Shown here piece after piece: positions 27,034 through 35,252 of a DNA stretch of 56,820 bases. The position numbers and the translations under genes were made by a program. The notes under the pieces were generated by a model. That model did no database searches, was not told where the DNA came from, and saw only the letters and a list, made by a program, of their open reading frames with translations. The DNA is from Buttiauxella noackiae ATCC 51607 (GTDB lineage Bacteria; Pseudomonadota; Gammaproteobacteria; Enterobacterales; Enterobacteriaceae): assembly GCF_001654865.1 (NCBI RefSeq), contig NZ_LXEO01000058.1:1-56820 (forward strand), given 5' to 3'. Every line of letters begins with the position of its first letter. Positions within the stretch are counted from its first letter, which is position 1.

Positions 27034-27942
27034 TCAGTTCCCCCCACTCAATTTCCCGCTCACCGCAGGATGCTGCAAATACTCCATACACCAGCGGCAA
27101 ACTTTCCCCATGCCGTCGGAACGGGCGGCCAGAAAGAGTTTTGTGGCGTGCTTGTGTTCCTGCATTGGCTTTTTTACCAGTTGGCCGTTATTCAGTAATG
27201 GCTGCGCCAGGTGATGGGGAATATAACCAATACCGACGTTTTTCTGGATTAGCGAAATGGCAGTCAGGAAGTCAGGTACGAATAAGGGCTTTTGCCCTTC
27301 CAGTAGCCAGGCCTGTTGAGGAATAAAATTAACCGCAGTATCGCGGATACAAATAGCAGGATATTGGCGTAATTCGGCGTTTTGCAGTGGCTGAACCTGG
27401 GTTGCCAGCGGGTGCTGCGGGCCGACAACAAAATCCCATTCCAGTTGGCCGATAGGCTCGCTAATAATCCCTTCAGTGCTTGGCACCGCATGCGGTGCGC
27501 CAATCACTAAATCGGCGCGTTTACTGTAGAGCGCATCCCAGCAGCCGTTGTAAACCTCAAGATTGATTCTCAACGTGGTCGAGGGAAACTGGCGCTCAAA
27601 ATCACAGATAAACTCCACCAGAACCGGCGTGGGAATAATGTTATTCACCGCGACCACCAGTTCCTGTTCAACGCCGTCATGAATCAGCACGGTATTACGT
27701 TTCAGGGCTTCCAGATCGTTGAGGATATTTTTGCTGTGCTGGATGAAATATTCGCCCGCAGATGTCAGCTCGATGTAACGGCCTTTGCGGATAAAGAGTT
27801 CGGCGCCAATGGCTTCTTCTGCTTTTTTGATGGTGTAGCTTATCGCCGAGGGGACTTTGTTCAGTTGTTCAGCAGCCGTCGTAATGCTCTGGTATTTAGC
27901 GACCAGATGGACAACGCGAATGGTTTCATCGGAGATAAACAT
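27034..27942 (-). CDS. AllS-like LysR-type regulator of the island
   Basis: A 302-residue LysR-type regulator. The helix-turn-helix spans about residues 1-60 (ITTAAEQLNKVPSAISYTIK), then an effector domain. Many positions agree with AllS, the allantoin-pathway activator of E. coli: SAISYTIKKAEE, the HDGVEQELVVAVNNIIPTP segment, YNGCWDAL, DLVIGAPHA and VGIGYIPHHLAQ. The ATG at 27942 is preferred (AGGGA upstream); an ATG at 27993 adds 17 unlikely residues. It is the promoter-distal gene of the minus-strand cluster, 77 bp after the permease. It probably senses the pathway substrate; that is inference. Confidence 0.85.
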   Translation of the reverse strand: MFISDETIRVVHLVAKYQSITTAAEQLNKVPSAISYTIKKAEEAIGAELFIRKGRYIELTSAGEYFIQHSKNILNDLEALKRNTVLIHDGVEQELVVAVNNIIPTPVLVEFICDFERQFPSTTLRINLEVYNGCWDALYSKRADLVIGAPHAVPSTEGIISEPIGQLEWDFVVGPQHPLATQVQPLQNAELRQYPAICIRDTAVNFIPQQAWLLEGQKPLFVPDFLTAISLIQKNVGIGYIPHHLAQPLLNNGQLVKKPMQEHKHATKLFLAARSDGMGKVCRWCMEYLQHPAVSGKLSGGN

Positions 27943-27963
27943 TGAGATTCCCTGGTGGCGTTG

Positions 27964-27994
27964 AATGGCCGGATCGTTCCTCGTTCCGGCCATT
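27964..27994. other. Hairpin between permease and LysR gene
   Basis: AATGGCCGGA (27964-27973) and TCCGGCCATT (27985-27994) form a perfect 10-bp stem with an 11-base loop. No U tract follows on the minus strand, so it looks like an intercistronic processing or partial-termination hairpin that could set regulator expression below that of the catabolic genes. Confidence 0.6.
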
Positions 27995-28019
27995 TGATTA
28001 TGCCCATTATACCCAGGAT

Positions 28020-29243
28020 TTAGTTGTGGCTACGTATTTTGCTTAGCACTGCATATGCAACGCAGGCCACAAGAATGGAATCCAGTGAGGGAATGGTTGT
28101 TAGCGTAAACAGGCCTTTAACGGTCATAAAGCCTACTGCTGAGCCCAGAATCCACGCAACAAACGTCAGCACTTTGATTTGTGGCTCGCGTGTCAGCACC
28201 GACTCTTCATAACCATTACGGCGATAAAGGAAGAAGTCGGAGATGTAGATCCCGGCGACCGGCGGTGTGGCAATGCCGAGGAACAGCAGGAACGGAATGA
28301 ACCACGCCATGATATCCATACTGCCGACTATCGCCGCCAGCACGCCAAGTGCGATGGTGATTTGCCATTTCGGAAAACGGGTCAGCAGCGTAGAAACTAC
28401 TAACGTACCCTGGAACATGTTCCCGGCATTACCCGTTACGCAGGCAAAAATAAGCAGCAGCGCGGCAGGCATTACTGCACCGAATACTGCCATCGCTCCT
28501 AACAACGAATTTTGCCCACTCAGTGCGCTCGGAGTGGCTCCCGCCCAATACAGCAGCGGATAGGCCACCAGGAAGGTTATCGCAGCGGCAATAATGGCGT
28601 GTTTGCGGTTATGCACGAAGCTGCCAAAATCGGGTAGGGTAGCAACCAGCACAATAATCGTGCCCACGACCGTTGAAACCGCAACGCCGGTATTCATGCT
28701 GACTACCGCAGCGGGTGCGGCAACGTCGGTATGAGTGGCGACATACAGGCAGTAGCAAAGCACGGCGGCAATGACCGGAACGGCAATTTGCGCGACTTTG
28801 CCCAGCACCGCGAAGCCAAACGCAGTAGAGGCGACAAAAATCACGCAACCTGCCGCAACCAATAGTTGCACCGGCACTTCCAGCCCGTGCTGCGCCAGTA
28901 AATCGTGTACCGAATGGCCGAACATATTGGCCGTGACCGCAATCCAGCCAAACAGGCTGATTGCCATCAGAATGTTGATAGCAATTGCACCTTTTTCACC
29001 AAATGGATATTTCACAATCCCGTAGGTGGGCAGACGGGCTTTTTCGCCTACGCTGATGGTGATGGCGGCGAGAACGGTCAGGATCAACCCGCCGATAATC
29101 ACCACGCTAACCAGGCCTGAGCTGGAAAGCTGGCTTCCCAGGCTTGAGGACGATAGCAGGACCGGTGTTACAGCGATCCCCAGCAAAATCATGGCAATAC
29201 GCAACCCTGACGCCGTGTTGAGACTTTCTTCTGTCTTACGCAT
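28020..29243 (-). CDS. NCS1-family permease, CodB-like
   Basis: A 407-residue polytopic membrane protein with about 11-12 hydrophobic helices. It resembles the cytosine/purine/hydantoin (NCS1) family in length and in landmarks such as the ATLPDFGSFVHNRKHAII segment and the unwound-helix region around GNAGNMFQGTL, equivalent to the substrate region of CodB. NCS1 carriers import nucleobases, hydantoins, allantoin and similar small planar ureides with H+ or Na+. Residues differ enough from CodB that cytosine should not be assumed. It is probably the uptake step for the compound degraded by the upstream genes. Confidence 0.85.
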   Translation of the reverse strand: MRKTEESLNTASGLRIAMILLGIAVTPVLLSSSSLGSQLSSSGLVSVVIIGGLILTVLAAITISVGEKARLPTYGIVKYPFGEKGAIAINILMAISLFGWIAVTANMFGHSVHDLLAQHGLEVPVQLLVAAGCVIFVASTAFGFAVLGKVAQIAVPVIAAVLCYCLYVATHTDVAAPAAVVSMNTGVAVSTVVGTIIVLVATLPDFGSFVHNRKHAIIAAAITFLVAYPLLYWAGATPSALSGQNSLLGAMAVFGAVMPAALLLIFACVTGNAGNMFQGTLVVSTLLTRFPKWQITIALGVLAAIVGSMDIMAWFIPFLLFLGIATPPVAGIYISDFFLYRRNGYEESVLTREPQIKVLTFVAWILGSAVGFMTVKGLFTLTTIPSLDSILVACVAYAVLSKIRSHN

Positions 29244-29267
29244 ATCTTGTTCCTTCTGAATTGCGTT

Positions 29268-29660
29268 TTACGCAGTATGGAAATGCCCGGTGTATTTGCG
29301 CCAGCTTCCCAGCTCGGTTATCTCTTTCTGGCCTTCGGTCAGCCAGTTTTCTGCCAGTACGCCCAGCACGATGCTGCCGTCGGCCAGTTTTACTTTGCCG
29401 ATAGACAGGCCAGCCGGTTCGCTTTCCAGCAGAGCGGCAAAGCTTGCCAGTGGCAGTTCCCAGATTTCCAGCTCCACGCTGGTGCCGCCATGCATCACAC
29501 GGATCATGCCAGGATGATCGTCGTTAATGCTCCACAGGCGATAGTGCGGGTCGGTGCGGTCTTCACGCACGAAGATGCCGCCTGCTTTTTGCATGTTTGG
29601 GTTCAGTTTCAGGCCGCGCATCAGGGTGCCGTTTACCGCGAGTAACGTTGTTGCTGTCAT
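29268..29660 (-). CDS. Stand-alone allophanate hydrolase C-terminal-type domain
   Basis: A 130-residue protein that matches the C-terminal domain of allophanate hydrolases (AtzF/DUR1,2 type): NGTLMRGLKLNPNMQKAGGI at the N-terminus, a DPHYRLWSI strand, GMIRVMHGGTSVELEIWELP, and IGKVKLADGSIVLGVLAE. In the full-length enzyme this domain follows an amidase domain, and in the yeast enzyme it decarboxylates the N-carboxycarbamate product. Here there is no amidase; the domain is encoded alone, 4 bp after the carbamate kinase gene and 24 bp before the permease. It may process or bind an allophanate-like intermediate; that is inference. Confidence 0.75.
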   Translation of the reverse strand: MTATTLLAVNGTLMRGLKLNPNMQKAGGIFVREDRTDPHYRLWSINDDHPGMIRVMHGGTSVELEIWELPLASFAALLESEPAGLSIGKVKLADGSIVLGVLAENWLTEGQKEITELGSWRKYTGHFHTA

Positions 29661-29664
29661 GGTG

Positions 29665-30636
29665 TTATTCCTTATTCTCAGAGGTAATCCAGGTGCCGCT
29701 TTGATGATTCAGTGCGGCTTTAATCGCTTGTGGGCTGGTGATCAGGCCGTTGGCATTTTTGCCGTTTTTTTGGCTGGCGTTGACGAAGCCAAGAATCGCT
29801 TCCACTTTCGGCTGCATGCTGCCAACGCCGAACTGGCCTTCATCAAGCAGCGTTTGGGCTTGCGCGATGCTCAGCGTATCCAGCCATTGCTGTTGTGGAG
29901 TGCCGAAGTTAATCGCCACTTTCTCCACGCCGGTTGGGATCAGCAGCAGATCCGCACCGAGCTGGCTTGCCAGCAGCGCAGACGCCAGATCTTTATCGAT
30001 CACCGCTTCAACGCCTTTCAGTTGATGCTGTTCATCGCGAACCACCGGAATACCGCCGCCGCCGCAGGCGATAACGATATAACCCTGCTTAACCAGGTTG
30101 GCGATGGTGTCGCGTTCGATGATTTCGAGCGGAGCCGGTGACGGTACGGTACGACGCCAGCCGCGACCCGCGTCTTCCATCATCGTCCAGCCGAGTTCCT
30201 GCTGGCGCTGAACGGCGGTTTGTTCGTCCATAAACGCGCCAACGGGTTTGTTCGGATTAGCGAAAGCGTGGTCGTTTTGATTCACCAGCGTTTGAGTTAC
30301 GAGAGTGACAACGGGTTTTGAAATGCCACGGCGCGCCAGTTCGTTGTGCAACGCTTTCTGGAACATGTAGCCGATTGCGCCCTGGGTATCGCCGACTGCA
30401 TAGTCCAGCGGTACCGGAGCGACTTCTGCACTGGCAAGTTCGGAGCGGCGCAGAATAAAGCCGACCTGCGGACCGTTACCATGGGTGAGCACCAGATTCC
30501 ATCCGGCTTCGACCATATCGGTAATGTGCTTAACGCTTTCCATCACCGCTTCGTACTGATCGGGAATGCTGTTGTGGCGATCGTCCTGGATTAGGGCATT
30601 GCCGCCTACAGCGACGACAGCTAAAGGCTTGCTCAT
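29665..30636 (-). CDS. Carbamate kinase (AllK/ArcC-like)
   Basis: A 323-residue amino-acid-kinase-fold enzyme. Signatures seen: VAVGGNALIQ at the N-terminus, LTHGNGPQVGFI (about residues 50-61), the VIACGGGGIPV loop and AVIDKDLASALLA. It makes ATP from carbamoyl phosphate and ADP, releasing carbamate that breaks down to CO2 and NH3. It overlaps the upstream AllG-like gene by 4 bp, which ties the kinase to a carbamoyltransferase; in the E. coli allantoin cluster the kinase AllK has the same role. No arginine deiminase genes are nearby, so this is not an arc operon. Confidence 0.93.
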   Translation of the reverse strand: MSKPLAVVAVGGNALIQDDRHNSIPDQYEAVMESVKHITDMVEAGWNLVLTHGNGPQVGFILRRSELASAEVAPVPLDYAVGDTQGAIGYMFQKALHNELARRGISKPVVTLVTQTLVNQNDHAFANPNKPVGAFMDEQTAVQRQQELGWTMMEDAGRGWRRTVPSPAPLEIIERDTIANLVKQGYIVIACGGGGIPVVRDEQHQLKGVEAVIDKDLASALLASQLGADLLLIPTGVEKVAINFGTPQQQWLDTLSIAQAQTLLDEGQFGVGSMQPKVEAILGFVNASQKNGKNANGLITSPQAIKAALNHQSGTWITSENKE

Positions 30637-32054
30637 TTTTTTGCTCCCTGCATTACGGTTTGCGCCAGTGCCTGAATTGCATCTACGAAACAGGACATCG
30701 GCGCGGTGGTGATCCCGGCGCCAATCTGGCCTACGCCTGCCTGTTTGTGGGCGATACCGGTGTTAATGACCGGCAGAATGCCGCGGTCAGCCACTTTGCG
30801 TGCGTCGATGCCCGCCGCCGTTGGTGCGAAGTTCAGCGCTGGCAGAGTAAACGCCGGGTTTGAGCCAAGCGTGATGAACTGCATACGACGGCTGTTATTG
30901 GTAGCATCAGCAGGGGTGCCGCCCACGAATTTCACGATTGCCGGAGAAGAGGCCATAGCGAAGCCGCCGACGCCTGCGGTTTCGGTGATTGCACTGTCGC
31001 CCAAATCCGCCGCAGCGTCGTCCACGCCGTAGCCTGGGAAGAACAGGCCTTCAACCGGGTTCGCCGGAGCCTGGAACCACTGGTCGCCCGTGCCGGATAA
31101 GCGGATCCCAAAATTCACGCCGTTGCGCGCCATGACCGTAACCATTGAGCTGAACGGTACGCCAGCGGCGGCGTCCATCATGACTTTACAGGCCGCCATC
31201 GAAAGATTAAGGAAGAAATGGTCGTTGCCGGTGATAAACGCCACCACGCGTTGCATGACTTCCAGCGGCAGATTGCTGGCCAGCAGAGCAGGCACCAGAC
31301 GTTTGATCAGTAAGCCTGTGGCAGCAGCGTTGCGGTTGTGCACTTCATCGCCCATGTGCAGCGCTTGTGCCATCAGCGGTTTTAATTCCAGCTCGCCGAT
31401 ATGACGTACCGCCACTTTCAGCGCCGGAGCCAGTTCGTTGCGCATCCAGTGCAGACGTTGCAACACTTCGTCGTTATTCGCGCCAAAGCGTAAAACTTTG
31501 CCCAGCCCTTCGTTGAAGTTACAGAACGCACGCTGGCCGTTTGTTTTGTTTTCAATCACCCACAGCGGCATGGACGGGCTGATAATCCCCGCCATTGGGC
31601 CGACGGCGGTGTAGTGGTGGCATGGCTCGAGATCTATATTGCCGCTTTTGGCGAGCAGTTCGGCCTCTTCATGTCTGGTGGCCCAGCCTTCAAACAGGAT
31701 CGCGCCGACAATCGCGCCTTTCACCGGGCCGCACATATTTTCCCAGCTAATCGGCGGGCCAGAGTGCAAAATCAGTTTGCGTTCGGCCATTGCCGGAATG
31801 GCTTCATCGGCCATCATCACGTCAACCAGCACCGGCTGGGCGTTCAGGTAACGCTCCATCGCCACCTGGTTGGCTTGCTCAACGAGTGGGTGGCGCAGTA
31901 AATCCGCCAGATCTAAACCGGCGTCGATATTCCCCAACGCAGGGGGTTGCCAGCTTAGCGCGATGGCTTCGCCACCCACTTTCTGAATATTGTTGGCGAA
32001 GCCCGCAAGCCCCGCATTGACCACTTTCAGCGGCTGATTAAATAAGGTGTTCAT
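30633..32054 (-). CDS. AllG/YlbE-like DUF1116 carbamoyltransferase component
   Basis: A 473-residue protein of the DUF1116 (YlbE) family; landmarks are LHSGPPISWENMCGPVKGAI, GPMAGIISPSMPLWVIEN and NGVNFGIRLSGTGDQWF. In E. coli, YlbE (AllG) is one of three proteins needed for oxamate carbamoyltransferase, which turns oxalurate and phosphate into oxamate and carbamoyl phosphate at the end of anaerobic allantoin use. It overlaps the FdrA-like gene by 4 bp and the kinase gene by 4 bp. It is longer than the E. coli protein (about 419 residues). The substrate here is unknown. Confidence 0.88.
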   Translation of the reverse strand: MNTLFNQPLKVVNAGLAGFANNIQKVGGEAIALSWQPPALGNIDAGLDLADLLRHPLVEQANQVAMERYLNAQPVLVDVMMADEAIPAMAERKLILHSGPPISWENMCGPVKGAIVGAILFEGWATRHEEAELLAKSGNIDLEPCHHYTAVGPMAGIISPSMPLWVIENKTNGQRAFCNFNEGLGKVLRFGANNDEVLQRLHWMRNELAPALKVAVRHIGELELKPLMAQALHMGDEVHNRNAAATGLLIKRLVPALLASNLPLEVMQRVVAFITGNDHFFLNLSMAACKVMMDAAAGVPFSSMVTVMARNGVNFGIRLSGTGDQWFQAPANPVEGLFFPGYGVDDAAADLGDSAITETAGVGGFAMASSPAIVKFVGGTPADATNNSRRMQFITLGSNPAFTLPALNFAPTAAGIDARKVADRGILPVINTGIAHKQAGVGQIGAGITTAPMSCFVDAIQALAQTVMQGAKK

Positions 32055-33610
32055 GCGGATACTCCGTTTTTCTTAACCTGAATCTGTGCAGCGATGCTCG
32101 CCCAGGTGGCGGCCTGTGCGTTGCAATCGGCAACGATAACGCCTGCCGCGCGCAGGGCATCAATCTGGCGGCTGCGCTGTTGCGGATCTGCCTGGGTGCC
32201 GCAAACGTGGGCGATCAGCAGCGGAGCGTTGGCTTTGTCGATTTTTGCCAGCAACTCCAGCAATTCGGCGGCGGGTTCTTCGGCTGCGCCATAGCCCAGC
32301 ACCAGGTCAAATAGCACAACGGCGGTTTGCGGATCGTTGAGTTCTGCAAGCAGGCGCTGGTTACGCAGCGTTGGATCGATCATCGGGTGCGGTTTGCCAC
32401 GAGTGAAATCGTCGTCACCCATGTCGATCAGCGTATGTCCCGCGCTCTTCCAGATGTCGGCCAGTTTGCTGTTGCCGGAAACAGGTGTGTTGGACGAAGC
32501 TGTAAAGCCGTGCTGTTGGCAAAGTAGCTGCGCTTCGTAACAGAAGGTGCCGCCAGCAAATACACCGCGAATCAACTGGCGAGTTGCAGGCAAGGGAAGG
32601 CAGGCTTTTTCCAGCGCGGCGATTTGTGCGGCATCTGGCTGCAAGGCGTGCTGAGCCAGGGGCGTTTTATTCAGCAGTGCGACGGCAAGGTCGGCTGCGC
32701 TGGCGAGGGTGCACGCTGCGGTAACGTTAGGGCGGGTAATATCTTCTGATTTGGCACCGAGGAAGTTAACAACTACCGGTTTACCTGCCGCCTGAGCCTG
32801 TTCCAGAATGCGTTCAGCTACGGCTTTTGAAGGTGGCTTGGAGATTAACACGATCACTTTTGTCGCTTCATCTTCTGCCAGTGCTTGCAGGCCGAACAAC
32901 ATAGAAATGCCGCCGATTTCCTCGCTTAAATCGTGCCCGCCGGTACCGAGTGCCTGGGAAATACCCGCGCCAAGCTGGTCGATACGGCAGGTGACTTCCT
33001 GCACGCCAGTGCCGGATGCACCGACTACACCAATCGCACCACGATTCACAACGTTGGCAAAGCCGAGCGGAATACCGTTAACAATGGCGGTGCCGCAGTC
33101 CGGCCCCATCACAATCAGGTTGCGTTCGCGGGCGTGGACTTTAATCGCTTTTTCCTGCGCGACGCTGACGTTATCGCTGAACATCATCACGTTCATGCCG
33201 AGGTTCAGCGCTTTCATGGCTTCGGCGGCGGCGTAATCGCCAGGGACGGAAATCAGTGCCAGATTCGCCTGTGGCTCTTTTTCCAGCGCCATCTCCATGC
33301 TGACCAAATCTGGCGTGCGTACACCGTCGTTATTGTCTTGTGCAGGTTTGCTGTTCAGGCGTTCATGGGCCAGAGCCAGCGCTTCCTGGCAGGCGTCTTC
33401 TTCGCCCATCACTGCAATGATCAGGTCGTTCGGCCCGGCGCTGATGTTGTCCCCAAGCCCGACGTCATGCAGTTGTTCGAGGTTGGTGGCGGTGCCCATA
33501 ACGACCGATGCCTGCTGAATGCCGGGTAACTTGCTGATTTGGGCTGAAATCTGCATCAGGGAGACGGAATCCTGATAGAGATTTTTGAAAACTTTATAAT
33601 CTACTTTCAT
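32051..33610 (-). CDS. fdrA: FdrA/AllF-like carbamoyltransferase component
   Basis: A 519-residue protein of the FdrA family, related to succinyl-CoA synthetase alpha chains: NLYQDSVSLMQIS at the N-terminus, MMFSDNVSVAQEKAIK, VMGPDCGTAIVNGIPLGFAN, GVVGASGTGVQEV (nucleotide-binding-like turn) and KPHPMIDPTLRNQRL with a conserved His. FdrA (AllF) is the large part of the E. coli oxamate carbamoyltransferase. The ATG at 33610 is preferred over a TTG at 33655 because MKVDYKVFKNLYQDSVSLM aligns with the family start. A 95-bp gap separates it from the AllH-like gene, the longest in the catabolic part. Confidence 0.9.
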   Translation of the reverse strand: MKVDYKVFKNLYQDSVSLMQISAQISKLPGIQQASVVMGTATNLEQLHDVGLGDNISAGPNDLIIAVMGEEDACQEALALAHERLNSKPAQDNNDGVRTPDLVSMEMALEKEPQANLALISVPGDYAAAEAMKALNLGMNVMMFSDNVSVAQEKAIKVHARERNLIVMGPDCGTAIVNGIPLGFANVVNRGAIGVVGASGTGVQEVTCRIDQLGAGISQALGTGGHDLSEEIGGISMLFGLQALAEDEATKVIVLISKPPSKAVAERILEQAQAAGKPVVVNFLGAKSEDITRPNVTAACTLASAADLAVALLNKTPLAQHALQPDAAQIAALEKACLPLPATRQLIRGVFAGGTFCYEAQLLCQQHGFTASSNTPVSGNSKLADIWKSAGHTLIDMGDDDFTRGKPHPMIDPTLRNQRLLAELNDPQTAVVLFDLVLGYGAAEEPAAELLELLAKIDKANAPLLIAHVCGTQADPQQRSRQIDALRAAGVIVADCNAQAATWASIAAQIQVKKNGVSA

Positions 33611-33705
33611 CGGTTTATGCCTGTTTCTTACTGCCCAATCGTGAAATTCGGGCAAAGCGATCCCGTGCAGAGTTTCTGTGGCTCTACAGGGGGGATTTTG
33701 TAATG

Positions 33706-34581
33706 TCAGAGCGTGGCTTTTAAGTTACGCAACCCGTGCAGCATTCCGGCGAGACAATCCACGCCTGATGAGGCGCCAAACTGCATAACCTGTTCGGCAG
33801 CGTGGACAACCGCCATAGTCTGCGCCTGTGAGGTGAGTTGTTCCTGCAACGCGCAAACGGGCTGTGAAAAATGACCTTCCAAAGCCCGGCTGAGATAGTG
33901 ACGGCTGATGTCCGTGGTTCGCGTCAGGTGCTGCGCTATCAGCGATTGCATCCGCTTCTGGTGCGTTTGTAGTTCTGGCGTGAGTTTCCAGGGACTAAGG
34001 GCTGCCAGATAACCCAACAGATAATCATCGCCATCCGGCGTTAAACCTTTGCCATAGCCGATTAGCTTCACGACCTGGTTTTCGAGCGACTCAGGTTGTT
34101 CCTGTGGTATCAGTCGCAGCCTGCTTTCGTCTTGGCTCACCGGAGCGGAGGCCCAAAACAGATCGCTTTCCACCCGGTGTTCCAGGCAGTAGAGCAGCAA
34201 TTGCGAGGCCAGCGTTTCGTAGTGCTGCAAAGCCTCTGGCAGCGCGTTCAGACTTAACGACTTGCCGCTAAGCCTGGGTTGCCAGACTACCGCTTCACTT
34301 AACTTCACCTGCCAATGCAGCGACTGAATGTGTTCCGCTGTCAGTTGAACGGCTTCACCCCGGTTTGCCTGCTGTCGCCAGTCCCAGTTGTGGGGTAAAT
34401 CCACACACACGGCATCGGGTAAGTTCTGGTAAAACTCTGCATCTAAAAGCGTGAAAAGATAGCCATCGTCAGCGATAAGGTTTAAAGTGTGCGCAAAACA
34501 GCTATGAACATGCGCATTCTTCGGTAACCGTGTGGCAGCGAGATACCCAATGGATACGGCTGCATGCGTGACGATAGCCAT
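33706..34581 (-). CDS. AllH/YlbF-like DUF2877 protein
   Basis: A 291-residue protein of the DUF2877 family (E. coli YlbF/AllH). The recognisable core is LIGYGKGLTPDGDDYLLGYLAAL, the family hallmark, and a C-terminal FGASSGVDCLAGMLHGL segment. AllH is the third component required for oxamate carbamoyltransferase activity. It starts 5 bp after the hydrolase gene, so the two are probably co-translated. The catalytic contribution of this subunit is not known in detail. Confidence 0.86.
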   Translation of the reverse strand: MAIVTHAAVSIGYLAATRLPKNAHVHSCFAHTLNLIADDGYLFTLLDAEFYQNLPDAVCVDLPHNWDWRQQANRGEAVQLTAEHIQSLHWQVKLSEAVVWQPRLSGKSLSLNALPEALQHYETLASQLLLYCLEHRVESDLFWASAPVSQDESRLRLIPQEQPESLENQVVKLIGYGKGLTPDGDDYLLGYLAALSPWKLTPELQTHQKRMQSLIAQHLTRTTDISRHYLSRALEGHFSQPVCALQEQLTSQAQTMAVVHAAEQVMQFGASSGVDCLAGMLHGLRNLKATL

Positions 34582-34586
34582 GTTGC

Positions 34587-35252
34587 TTAGCCTTTCAGAC
34601 CTTTGATGATGGCATCGGCGTTGCTGACCCAGCCAAAGATCGCGCCCTGGGCTTTGATCATCTCCAGCGCGTATTTTTGGAATTCAGGGAAGTAAGAACC
34701 TACGCAGTCTTCTGGAATGATGCACTCGTAGCCGCGATCGTTCGCTTCACGCACCGTGGTGTTCACGCAAACTTCGGTCGTTACGCCGCACACAATCAGC
34801 GTTTTGATGCCGTTGTTTTGCAGAATCAGATGTAAATCAGTTTGGTAGAACGCACCTTTACCCGGTTTGTCGATGATTGGCTCACCGGCAACGGGATACA
34901 GTTCAGGAATGATGTCGTGCCCGGCTTCGCCACGTACCAATGTGCGGCCCATTGGGCCTGGTTCGCCGATAAAAGTCTTACCGCCGCGAGTGAGTTTGGC
35001 TGGTGGGCAATCGGTCAAATCCGGGCGATGGCCTTCACGAGTGTGGATAACCAACAGATCTTTGTTTCGCGCCACTTCCAGTACGTGTTTACACGGTTCA
35101 ATCGCACTGCGAACCAGTGAAACATCATTACCTAACGCTTCGCCAAAACCACCGGCTTCCACGAAATCACGCTGCATATCAATCATCACCAGCGCGGTTG
35201 TTTTTCGATCAAAGGGCAGAGCAAAAGGTTGAGCTTCAAAAGCATGAGTCAT
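34587..35252 (-). CDS. Isochorismatase-family amidohydrolase, biuret-hydrolase-like
   Basis: A 221-residue cysteine hydrolase. The catalytic triad of the family is visible: Asp25 in VMIDMQRDF, Lys129 in IIDKPGKGAF and Cys162 in VTTEVCV. As remembered from the Rhizobium biuret hydrolase BiuH (Asp36, Lys142, Cys175, Gln215), the Lys-Cys and Cys-Gln spacings are kept, with Gln202 in KAQGAIFG; HTREGHRPDL, GEPGPMGRTLVRGEAG and TVREANDRGYECIIPEDCVG also agree. Likely reaction: biuret plus water to allophanate plus ammonia. Related ureido or N-carbamoyl amides are possible. It is the first gene of the island operon. Confidence 0.82.
   Translation of the reverse strand: MTHAFEAQPFALPFDRKTTALVMIDMQRDFVEAGGFGEALGNDVSLVRSAIEPCKHVLEVARNKDLLVIHTREGHRPDLTDCPPAKLTRGGKTFIGEPGPMGRTLVRGEAGHDIIPELYPVAGEPIIDKPGKGAFYQTDLHLILQNNGIKTLIVCGVTTEVCVNTTVREANDRGYECIIPEDCVGSYFPEFQKYALEMIKAQGAIFGWVSNADAIIKGLKG

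Follow-up and report, generated by a model that had tools for sequence, protein, structure and literature searches.

A Buttiauxella noackiae operon that joins a triuret-hydrolase-like enzyme to an AllFGH-type transcarbamylase and carbamate kinase: a candidate route from triuret to ATP by way of 1-carboxybiuret

Degradation of ureides has been described in several bacteria. In Herbaspirillum, triuret is degraded through TrtA-(TrtB)-BiuH-AtzF; nuclear magnetic resonance (NMR) identified the TrtA product as 1-carboxybiuret, and cyanuric acid hydrolase yields the same compound, so that both routes converge there (PMC7948467). Pseudomonas ADP degrades cyanuric acid through AtzD-AtzE/G/H-AtzF, where the atzE/G/H genes serve 1-carboxybiuret, although atzG-E-H clusters occur with other substrates too (PMC6219798). 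In Escherichia coli, the oxamic transcarbamylase (OXTCase) AllFGH, which acts together with the carbamate kinase AllK, requires all three of its subunits (PMC11326118). Here we analyse the contig NZ_LXEO01000058.1 of Buttiauxella noackiae ATCC 51607, all 56,820 nucleotides of which constitute the window to which the operon coordinates refer. Between metE and ysgA it carries an eight-gene operon in which parts of these systems meet. We think it somewhat more likely than not that this operon takes up triuret, hydrolyses it by a TrtA-type enzyme to 1-carboxybiuret, splits the latter by AllFGH phosphorolysis and forms ATP by carbamate kinase, which would be nitrogen scavenging with energy conservation.

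The initial annotation had described eight co-directional genes at this site, and the open reading frames (ORFs) are indeed open, all on the minus strand, from 35252 down to 27034. Its parts list (AllH, FdrA, AllG, carbamate kinase, AH_C, permease and LysR) is borne out by Pfam, with FdrA and the kinase also above their NCBIfam cut-offs, and, as it had noted, none of the eight is an upstream allantoin gene. The intergenic gaps, in order from 35252 to 27034, are 5, 50, -4, -4, 4, 24 and 26 bp, which makes a single transcript likely. The genes, in the same order, are the following.

34587..35252, minus strand: TrtA-type isochorismatase-like cysteine hydrolase (Pfam isochorismatase, 159.8 bits), predicted to convert triuret to 1-carboxybiuret and NH3
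33706..34581, minus strand: AllH-like subunit (DUF2877; PF11392, 90.2 bits)
32051..33655, minus strand: AllF/FdrA-like subunit (CoA_binding and Ligase_CoA; NF004760, 501 bits, cut-off 433; solved homologue 3dmy)
30633..32054, minus strand: AllG-like subunit (DUF1116; PF06545, 326.6 bits; solved homologue 3clq)
29665..30636, minus strand: carbamate kinase (AA_kinase; TIGR00746 arcC, 363.0 bits, cut-off 358.25), carbamoyl phosphate + ADP to carbamate + ATP
29268..29660, minus strand: stand-alone AH_C protein of 130 aa (PF21986, 140.7 bits), homologue of c4763 (PDB 5c5z)
28020..29243, minus strand: NCS1-type permease, presumed importer (PF02133 Transp_cyt_pur, 52.8 bits; cytosine permease model 148 bits, below its cut-off of 326)
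27034..27993, minus strand: LysR-type regulator (PF00126 and PF03466; nearest models PunR, 285 bits, cut-off 345, and AllS, 231 bits, cut-off 372, both below)

For two of these genes an inner ATG is the likely start: at 33610 for FdrA, which gives 1560 bp, equal to the annotated E. coli homologue, and at 27942 for the LysR gene.

The first enzyme had been called biuret-hydrolase-like, and it does belong to the same isochorismatase-like subfamily. It is 57.3% identical to TrtA (6xix) and 53.0% to BiuH (6azo); phmmer ranks TrtA first (261.7 against 238.7 bits), and the protein misses the equivalog cut-off of BiuH, the nearest NCBIfam model, with 271.4 bits against 370. TrtA and BiuH are reported to differ at six named positions, their active sites being otherwise alike (PMC7948467). 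These positions (35, 41, 134, 160, 187 and 205) were compared in an alignment of 54 operon homologues, one per locus, with TrtA 6xix and BiuH 6azo, from which L041 (match too short), L100, L101, L103, L107 and L114 were left out, L114 being read with the rows of the hydrolase tree instead. The nine core sites, DQFKKVTCQ, are identical to TrtA in the window hydrolase and in 54/54 homologues, and so are the catalytic Asp24, Lys129 and Cys162 and the binding residues Lys132 and Gln202. At the six discriminating sites the window hydrolase reads FNAEYI, the TrtA residues at 6/6, and shares none of the six with BiuH 6azo (YYSDTV); RhdBiuH, a second solved BiuH, reads YYADTV. Among the homologues FNAEYI is found in 43 of the 54, FNSEYI (5/6) in nine and FNAHFI (4/6) in two Firmicutes, while YYSDTV occurs in none.

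In a hydrolase tree of 28 rows (17 of them hand-picked operon proteins; the program warned of long branches), the proteobacterial and actinobacterial operon hydrolases join TrtA in a clade of 18 rows with support 97/93, whose inner order is unresolved. The Firmicutes hydrolases branch next to this clade (93/93), and a group of five BiuH-like proteins, including two with solved structures, stands apart (99/98). Judged from residues and tree, the enzyme is better named triuret-hydrolase-like than biuret-hydrolase-like. With TrtA residues at all discriminating sites, its expected product is 1-carboxybiuret rather than allophanate; the proposal that biuret is the first substrate thus loses its support, and that step is probably wrong.

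The second line of evidence comes from the transcarbamylase. GTDB species genomes were scanned by pattern for the window AllG, an approach that detects close relatives only, and 62 loci were obtained. Within the stretches covered, 52 have a TrtA-type gene and 2 have TrzD; of the others, 5 lack both but have an AtzC-like amidohydrolase (28-33% identity), and 3 show none of the three. In a maximum-likelihood tree of 89 AllG rows, with bootstrap not fully settled, the operon-type proteins form a clade (support 98/95) separate from both the all (oxalurate) clade and the yah clade. This clade also happens to have 62 rows, namely the 52 TrtA scan loci minus L061 and L064, the two TrzD scan loci, and ten added from plasmids, E. 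coli and the G-genomes. The window AllG, placed by a quick tree of 76 rows, falls in the operon clade beside Buttiauxella sp. A111, at 93% identity. Within the stretches covered, FdrA and the kinase accompany AllG at 62/62 clade loci, TrtA at 57/62 (counting L041, where it is partial at a contig end) and TrzD at the other 5/62. AllB, AllC, AllD, AllE and YahJ were found at 0/62 of these loci within the same stretches, as were a second TrtA/BiuH-like gene and an AtzH-like gene; AtzF-type amidase matches occur at 4/62 (L072 and L032, AtzF; L107 and L051, 31%).

On the chromosome of E. coli MCJCHV-1, AllG is found at three places, which makes it probable that the oxalurate enzyme is present there as well. 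The B. noackiae genome has two AllG genes, the operon's own and a yah-type one, and none of the all type; G199, a genome of the same genus, gave one all-type and one yah-type AllG match and no others, its metE-ysgA site not having been inspected. By sequence, then, the operon transcarbamylase is different from the oxalurate enzyme, with all three subunits AllF, AllG and AllH encoded in the window. The initial annotation had proposed conversion of a ureide to carbamoyl phosphate and ATP through AllFGH and carbamate kinase. For a ureide other than oxalurate, this agrees with the separate AllG clade, the lack of allantoin genes in the stretches covered at the 62 loci and the three AllG places of MCJCHV-1; for biuret it does not hold up.

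Moreover, the upstream enzyme can be exchanged. At five loci (Klebsiella twice, Huaxiibacter, Aeromonas and Enterobacter; four plasmid records, that of Huaxiibacter being a contig), TrzD and an NCS2 permease replace TrtA, AH_C and NCS1 ahead of AllH-FdrA-AllG-kinase, and LysR follows the kinase in 4/5. The TrzD of L032 scores 538.5 bits on NF052395 (cyanuric acid amidohydrolase; cut-off 360), and the remaining four are 95-97% identical to it. We also considered whether the ring-opening enzyme of L032 could be a barbiturase, which would make ureidomalonate the AllFGH substrate; this was rejected, since cyanuric acid hydrolase structures match at 548 bits against 305 for barbiturase and NF052395 is passed. 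In the AllG tree, and in an FdrA tree of 71 rows made by a quick method, the five TrzD loci nest within the clade of TrtA-context genes, so that the swap probably arose from the TrtA form. The Enterobacter kobei TrzD unit is flanked by copies of IS26, and no AtzF amidase match was found in the 29 kb around it or in 21 kb of Aeromonas.

A further arrangement is seen in Paroceanicella, where a TrtA-like gene (TrtA residues at 6/6) lies beside AtzH-, AtzG- (DUF4089) and AtzE-like genes. The 'regulator' of this cluster is a 43-52% relative of xanthine-permease-like proteins, which flank TrtA in Peptoclostridium and occur near TrtA in L101. TrtA, the TrzD swap and the TrtA cluster with AtzE/G/H together point to 1-carboxybiuret as the common node. 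As a separate observation, in two atzC-bearing plasmid stretches (L068 and L069) the neighbours of atzC are a carbamate kinase (47%) and what is left of an AllG (57% over 173 aa), so that atzC may have arrived together with a cluster of AllFGH type. AllFGH loci gave no match to the formamidase-like genes that adjoin TrtA/BiuH in L119 and L120, the sole weak match being L078, in the B. noackiae genome.

Oxalurate, -OOC-CO-NH-CO-NH2, and 1-carboxybiuret, -OOC-NH-CO-NH-CO-NH2, are both acylureas with a distal carboxylate. By analogy, we infer that phosphorolysis would give carbamoyl phosphate together with oxamate from the former and with allophanate from the latter. On the proposed route, the NCS1 permease would import triuret and the TrtA-type hydrolase would remove one amide from it, yielding NH3 and 1-carboxybiuret; the AllFGH-type complex would then split 1-carboxybiuret with phosphate to carbamoyl phosphate and allophanate, ahead of CO2 loss by the unstable intermediate, and carbamate kinase would turn carbamoyl phosphate into ATP, NH3 and CO2. 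Flux in this direction and the ATP yield are predicted on the same footing as the triuret specificity of the hydrolase. Allophanate might undergo a second split to carbamoyl phosphate and carbamate, be hydrolysed in those hosts that possess AtzF, or be lost as urea, and AH_C would act on some N-carboxylated or precursor compound. Phosphorolysis of allophanate had been put forward as the step right after the hydrolase, where the expected product, 1-carboxybiuret, speaks against it; it may still take place as a second step. Perhaps one AllFGH-type complex acts twice, on 1-carboxybiuret and then on allophanate, giving two ATP per triuret or, in the plasmid form, per cyanuric acid, a possibility that we raise only tentatively.

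If the proposed route is true, it would be, as far as we know, the first that recovers the nitrogen of triuret or cyanuric acid with ATP made instead of by plain hydrolysis. A urate oxidation product would thereby be tied to the energy metabolism of bacteria, and an entire operon, which includes a crystallised 'uropathogenic E. coli-specific' protein and is also carried on IncF-type plasmids, would gain a function. Triuret, as an oxidation product of urate, has been reported from human urine (PMC7948467). Were the complex to act twice, uric acid oxidation products and the s-triazine ring would be catabolised in the manner of a true fermentation, by genes that lie partly on conjugative plasmids and that more than one in four of the complete E. 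coli genomes searched would contain.

The fate of allophanate would depend on the host. B. noackiae has urea-type ABC transporter genes (named by reading, no family search being made), and its genome gave no match to urease. The E. coli control genome gave neither an amidase-family nor a urease match, and a DNA-level match to the B. noackiae AtzF occurs in 3/5426 complete E. coli genomes, a comparison that a remoter AtzF could escape. As AtzF is lacking in nearly all E. coli, allophanate there must either be dealt with by the operon, through a second phosphorolysis, or be lost as urea. To argue from the want of an allophanate hydrolase is sound for nearly all E. coli; for B. noackiae, where an AtzF-type gene is present, this argument was dropped.

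The AH_C protein matches 5c5z at 250.8 bits (88% identity in the fold search). A stand-alone AH_C is found at 56/57 TrtA loci of the clade, the exception being L041, which is cut short, and lies at most 300 bp from the kinase in 53/56; none was found at the five TrzD loci or at three Firmicutes TrtA loci. Being tied to TrtA and not to TrzD, it may act before 1-carboxybiuret. The pairing of amidase and AH_C domains known from AtzF is not seen here, as AH_C stands alone and no amidase is among the eight genes. The operon protein has the motif NGTLMRG and Glu81; GTL and Glu81 are present in the 57 stand-alone AH_C proteins aligned (the window, 5c5z and 55 loci, with L101 counted as stand-alone), whereas six AtzF C domains have GAH and no Glu81. 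The usual job of an AtzF C domain was therefore considered and is not supported, the AtzF motif (GAH) being missing. A fold search with the AH_C model, whose mean predicted local distance difference test (pLDDT) is 75.6, returned 5c5z, then AtzF C domains, then gamma-glutamylamine cyclotransferase, which suggests a cyclotransferase-like fold. It is a guess, from position alone, that Glu81 corresponds to the catalytic Glu of the cyclotransferases, an E82Q mutant being among the fold matches. The close homologue c4763, 'uropathogenic E. coli-specific protein', appears in a passage of PMC7558591 that does not mention the operon; there it is said, at second hand, to be homologous to allophanate hydrolase and to belong to the breakdown of urea. 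A homologue is present in the operon of C41(DE3), hence the protein is not confined to uropathogens.

Several points weigh against the proposed triuret route. The residue signature is no proof of triuret as substrate, at only 57% identity to TrtA, and in nine hydrolase relatives site 134 is occupied by serine, as in BiuH. The AllG clade does not take in the TrtA-AllFGH loci of Firmicutes, where the association could be of the same descent or of another. The five TrzD loci are near-identical, hence effectively one event. In addition, K. pneumoniae pHS08204 has AtzF about 4 kb beyond the LysR gene of its TrzD operon, on the opposite strand, and in the TrzD locus L032 an AtzF is truncated where the locus ends. 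B. noackiae itself has AtzF (amidase + AH_C) on another contig, followed by a biotin-carboxylase-type gene that, named by reading with no family search, is taken for urea carboxylase. The route also leaves AH_C unexplained. Finally, tblastn found no AllH at 14/62 clade loci (L009, L011, L031, L034, L101 and nine mycobacterial ones), in all of which TrtA directly precedes FdrA, at 17-190 bp; a profile search in 13 of these 14 gave none, save an 8-bit match in L034. A transcarbamylase without AllH may thus exist. The predicted AllH structure (AlphaFold, mean pLDDT 89.7) had no PDB match at E<=0.001 in a fold search, and AllH is possibly an unsolved fold.

Of the other explanations, the one that survives best also begins with triuret and 1-carboxybiuret, which would become biuret spontaneously or by AH_C; AllFGH would then split biuret with phosphate to carbamoyl phosphate and urea, the latter being excreted. 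Biuret is likewise an acylurea, and the C domain of AtzF is reported as a likely decarboxylase of an N-carboxy compound, the two domains of AtzF being described as working one after the other. The half-life of 1-carboxybiuret towards decarboxylation, about 20 min (PMC7948467), fits as well. Biuret, however, has no carboxylate, unlike oxalurate, on which the AllFGH family is known to act, and this together with the stand-alone AH_C not found at TrzD and Firmicutes loci leads us to regard this explanation as unlikely. It is quite improbable, in our view, that two unrelated functions merely stand side by side, TrtA for triuret and AllFGH for oxalurate from other organisms. Homology of AllFGH to OXTCase would allow it, and it was published for a like arrangement in nitrifiers (PMC12625717), yet the AllG clade is distinct from the oxalurate clade, one operon-bearing E. 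coli strain has AllG at three places, an oxalurate-making gene was seen at 0/62 loci within the stretches covered, and the link to two producers of 1-carboxybiuret is tight and swappable. Equally doubtful is a hydrolase that makes allophanate from biuret for AllFGH to split into carbamoyl phosphate and carbamate: the shared isochorismatase subfamily with BiuH as nearest NCBIfam model (271 bits), one generalist BiuH that accepts biuret and triuret (PMC7948467), and archaeal ammonia oxidisers reported with BiuH, not TrtA, near allFGHK (PMC12625717), which also counts against the triuret route, are outweighed by TrtA residues at 6/6 sites, the tree position with TrtA and TrzD operons without BiuH.

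The gene order TrtA-(AllH)-FdrA-AllG-CK (CK, carbamate kinase) recurs in Enterobacterales, Burkholderiaceae, Vibrio, Dyella, Silvimonas and mycobacteria; the co-occurrence outside all clusters that the initial annotation had suggested looking for is found across several lineages, far beyond chance. Among 398 genomes drawn evenly from Pseudomonadota, 16 had an AllG match (15 above cut-off), and five of their AllG loci belong to the operon clade (the window, G249, G255 and two in G321), with TrtA beside 5/5. Of 5426 complete E. coli genomes, 1543 have 80% or more of the operon in one place; counted at any length, there are 1618 places, 1489 chromosomal and 129 on plasmids. Plasmid records gave an AllG match of any type in 193/72,556. 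In the laboratory strain E. coli C41(DE3), a descendant of BL21, all eight genes occupy the equivalent site, ysgA - operon - metE, and none bears a pseudogene mark; in MCJCHV-1 the operon also follows udp and ysgA, with different genes beyond it. The designation as an island is upheld by patchy occurrence only, as seen with G199; the guanine plus cytosine (GC) content of the operon (0.549) is unremarkable beside that of its flanks (0.544 and 0.505).

Some of these loci are worth describing individually. In the Firmicutes loci L114, L061 and L064, TrtA lies between two xanthine-permease-like genes, followed by AllH-FdrA-AllG-kinase; it is in fermenting Firmicutes that ATP from a ureide would count most. 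In L066 the operon is on an E. coli IncF plasmid, presumably ColV, adjoining a cytochrome b562 gene and a bacteriocin immunity gene. A record named Chryseobacterium shares its AllG with a Citrobacter record of the same isolate series (L005 and L006) and is probably a contaminated or mislabelled assembly. More remote homologues are seen in Methylocystis (L070), with AllG-like and FdrA-like genes (38-40%) within an MSMEG_0565-0572/Nit6803 nitrogen-starvation nitrilase cluster, and on a Rhodococcus plasmid (L113), where an AllG homologue without FdrA match lies among glutamine synthetase-like and SDR genes.

Turning back to the described systems, the E. coli yahDEFGHIJ operon shares the AllH-FdrA-AllG-CK core and differs in its own AllG clade, the amidohydrolase YahJ and the ankyrin protein YahD. 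B. noackiae carries this type too (L065, contig C3: YahD, FdrA, AllG, kinase and YahJ), in which AllG and the kinase are separated by a xanthine-permease-like gene of 512 aa. With E. coli AllFGH and AllK the operon shares the three subunit families, carbamate kinase and a chemistry of N-acylurea carboxylate and phosphate (PMC11326118), whereas its AllG is in a separate clade, allB/C/D/E are not nearby, TrtA or TrzD lies upstream and AllH is unmatched at some loci. The Herbaspirillum pathway (PMC7948467) has the same first enzyme with the same signature, but the operon is without BiuH, AtzH-like gene, formamidase-like gene and full AtzF, and has a transcarbamylase and kinase instead. The Pseudomonas ADP pathway (PMC6219798) shares the 1-carboxybiuret node, related plasmid operons using TrzD, and proceeds by hydrolysis where phosphorolysis is proposed for the operon. 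Closest in arrangement are the nitrifier clusters of comammox bacteria and ammonia-oxidising archaea, in which trtA/biuH/atzF stand beside allFGHK, with AtzF in comammox; the published reading is of separate triuret and oxalurate pathways, and the passages of that paper drawn on here hold no proposal that AllFGH takes 1-carboxybiuret (PMC12625717). In open-access full text, no proposal of phosphorolysis of 1-carboxybiuret or allophanate was found; biuret together with carbamate kinase and allophanate appears only in PMC12625717, and triuret with carbamoyl only in PMC7948467, PMC12625717 and papers on prebiotic chemistry or herbicide decay. Thus, the co-location of allFGHK with biuH, trtA and atzF is already in print for nitrifiers (PMC12625717) and the individual parts are known, while the synthesis of TrtA identity, TrzD swap and common node seems to be new.

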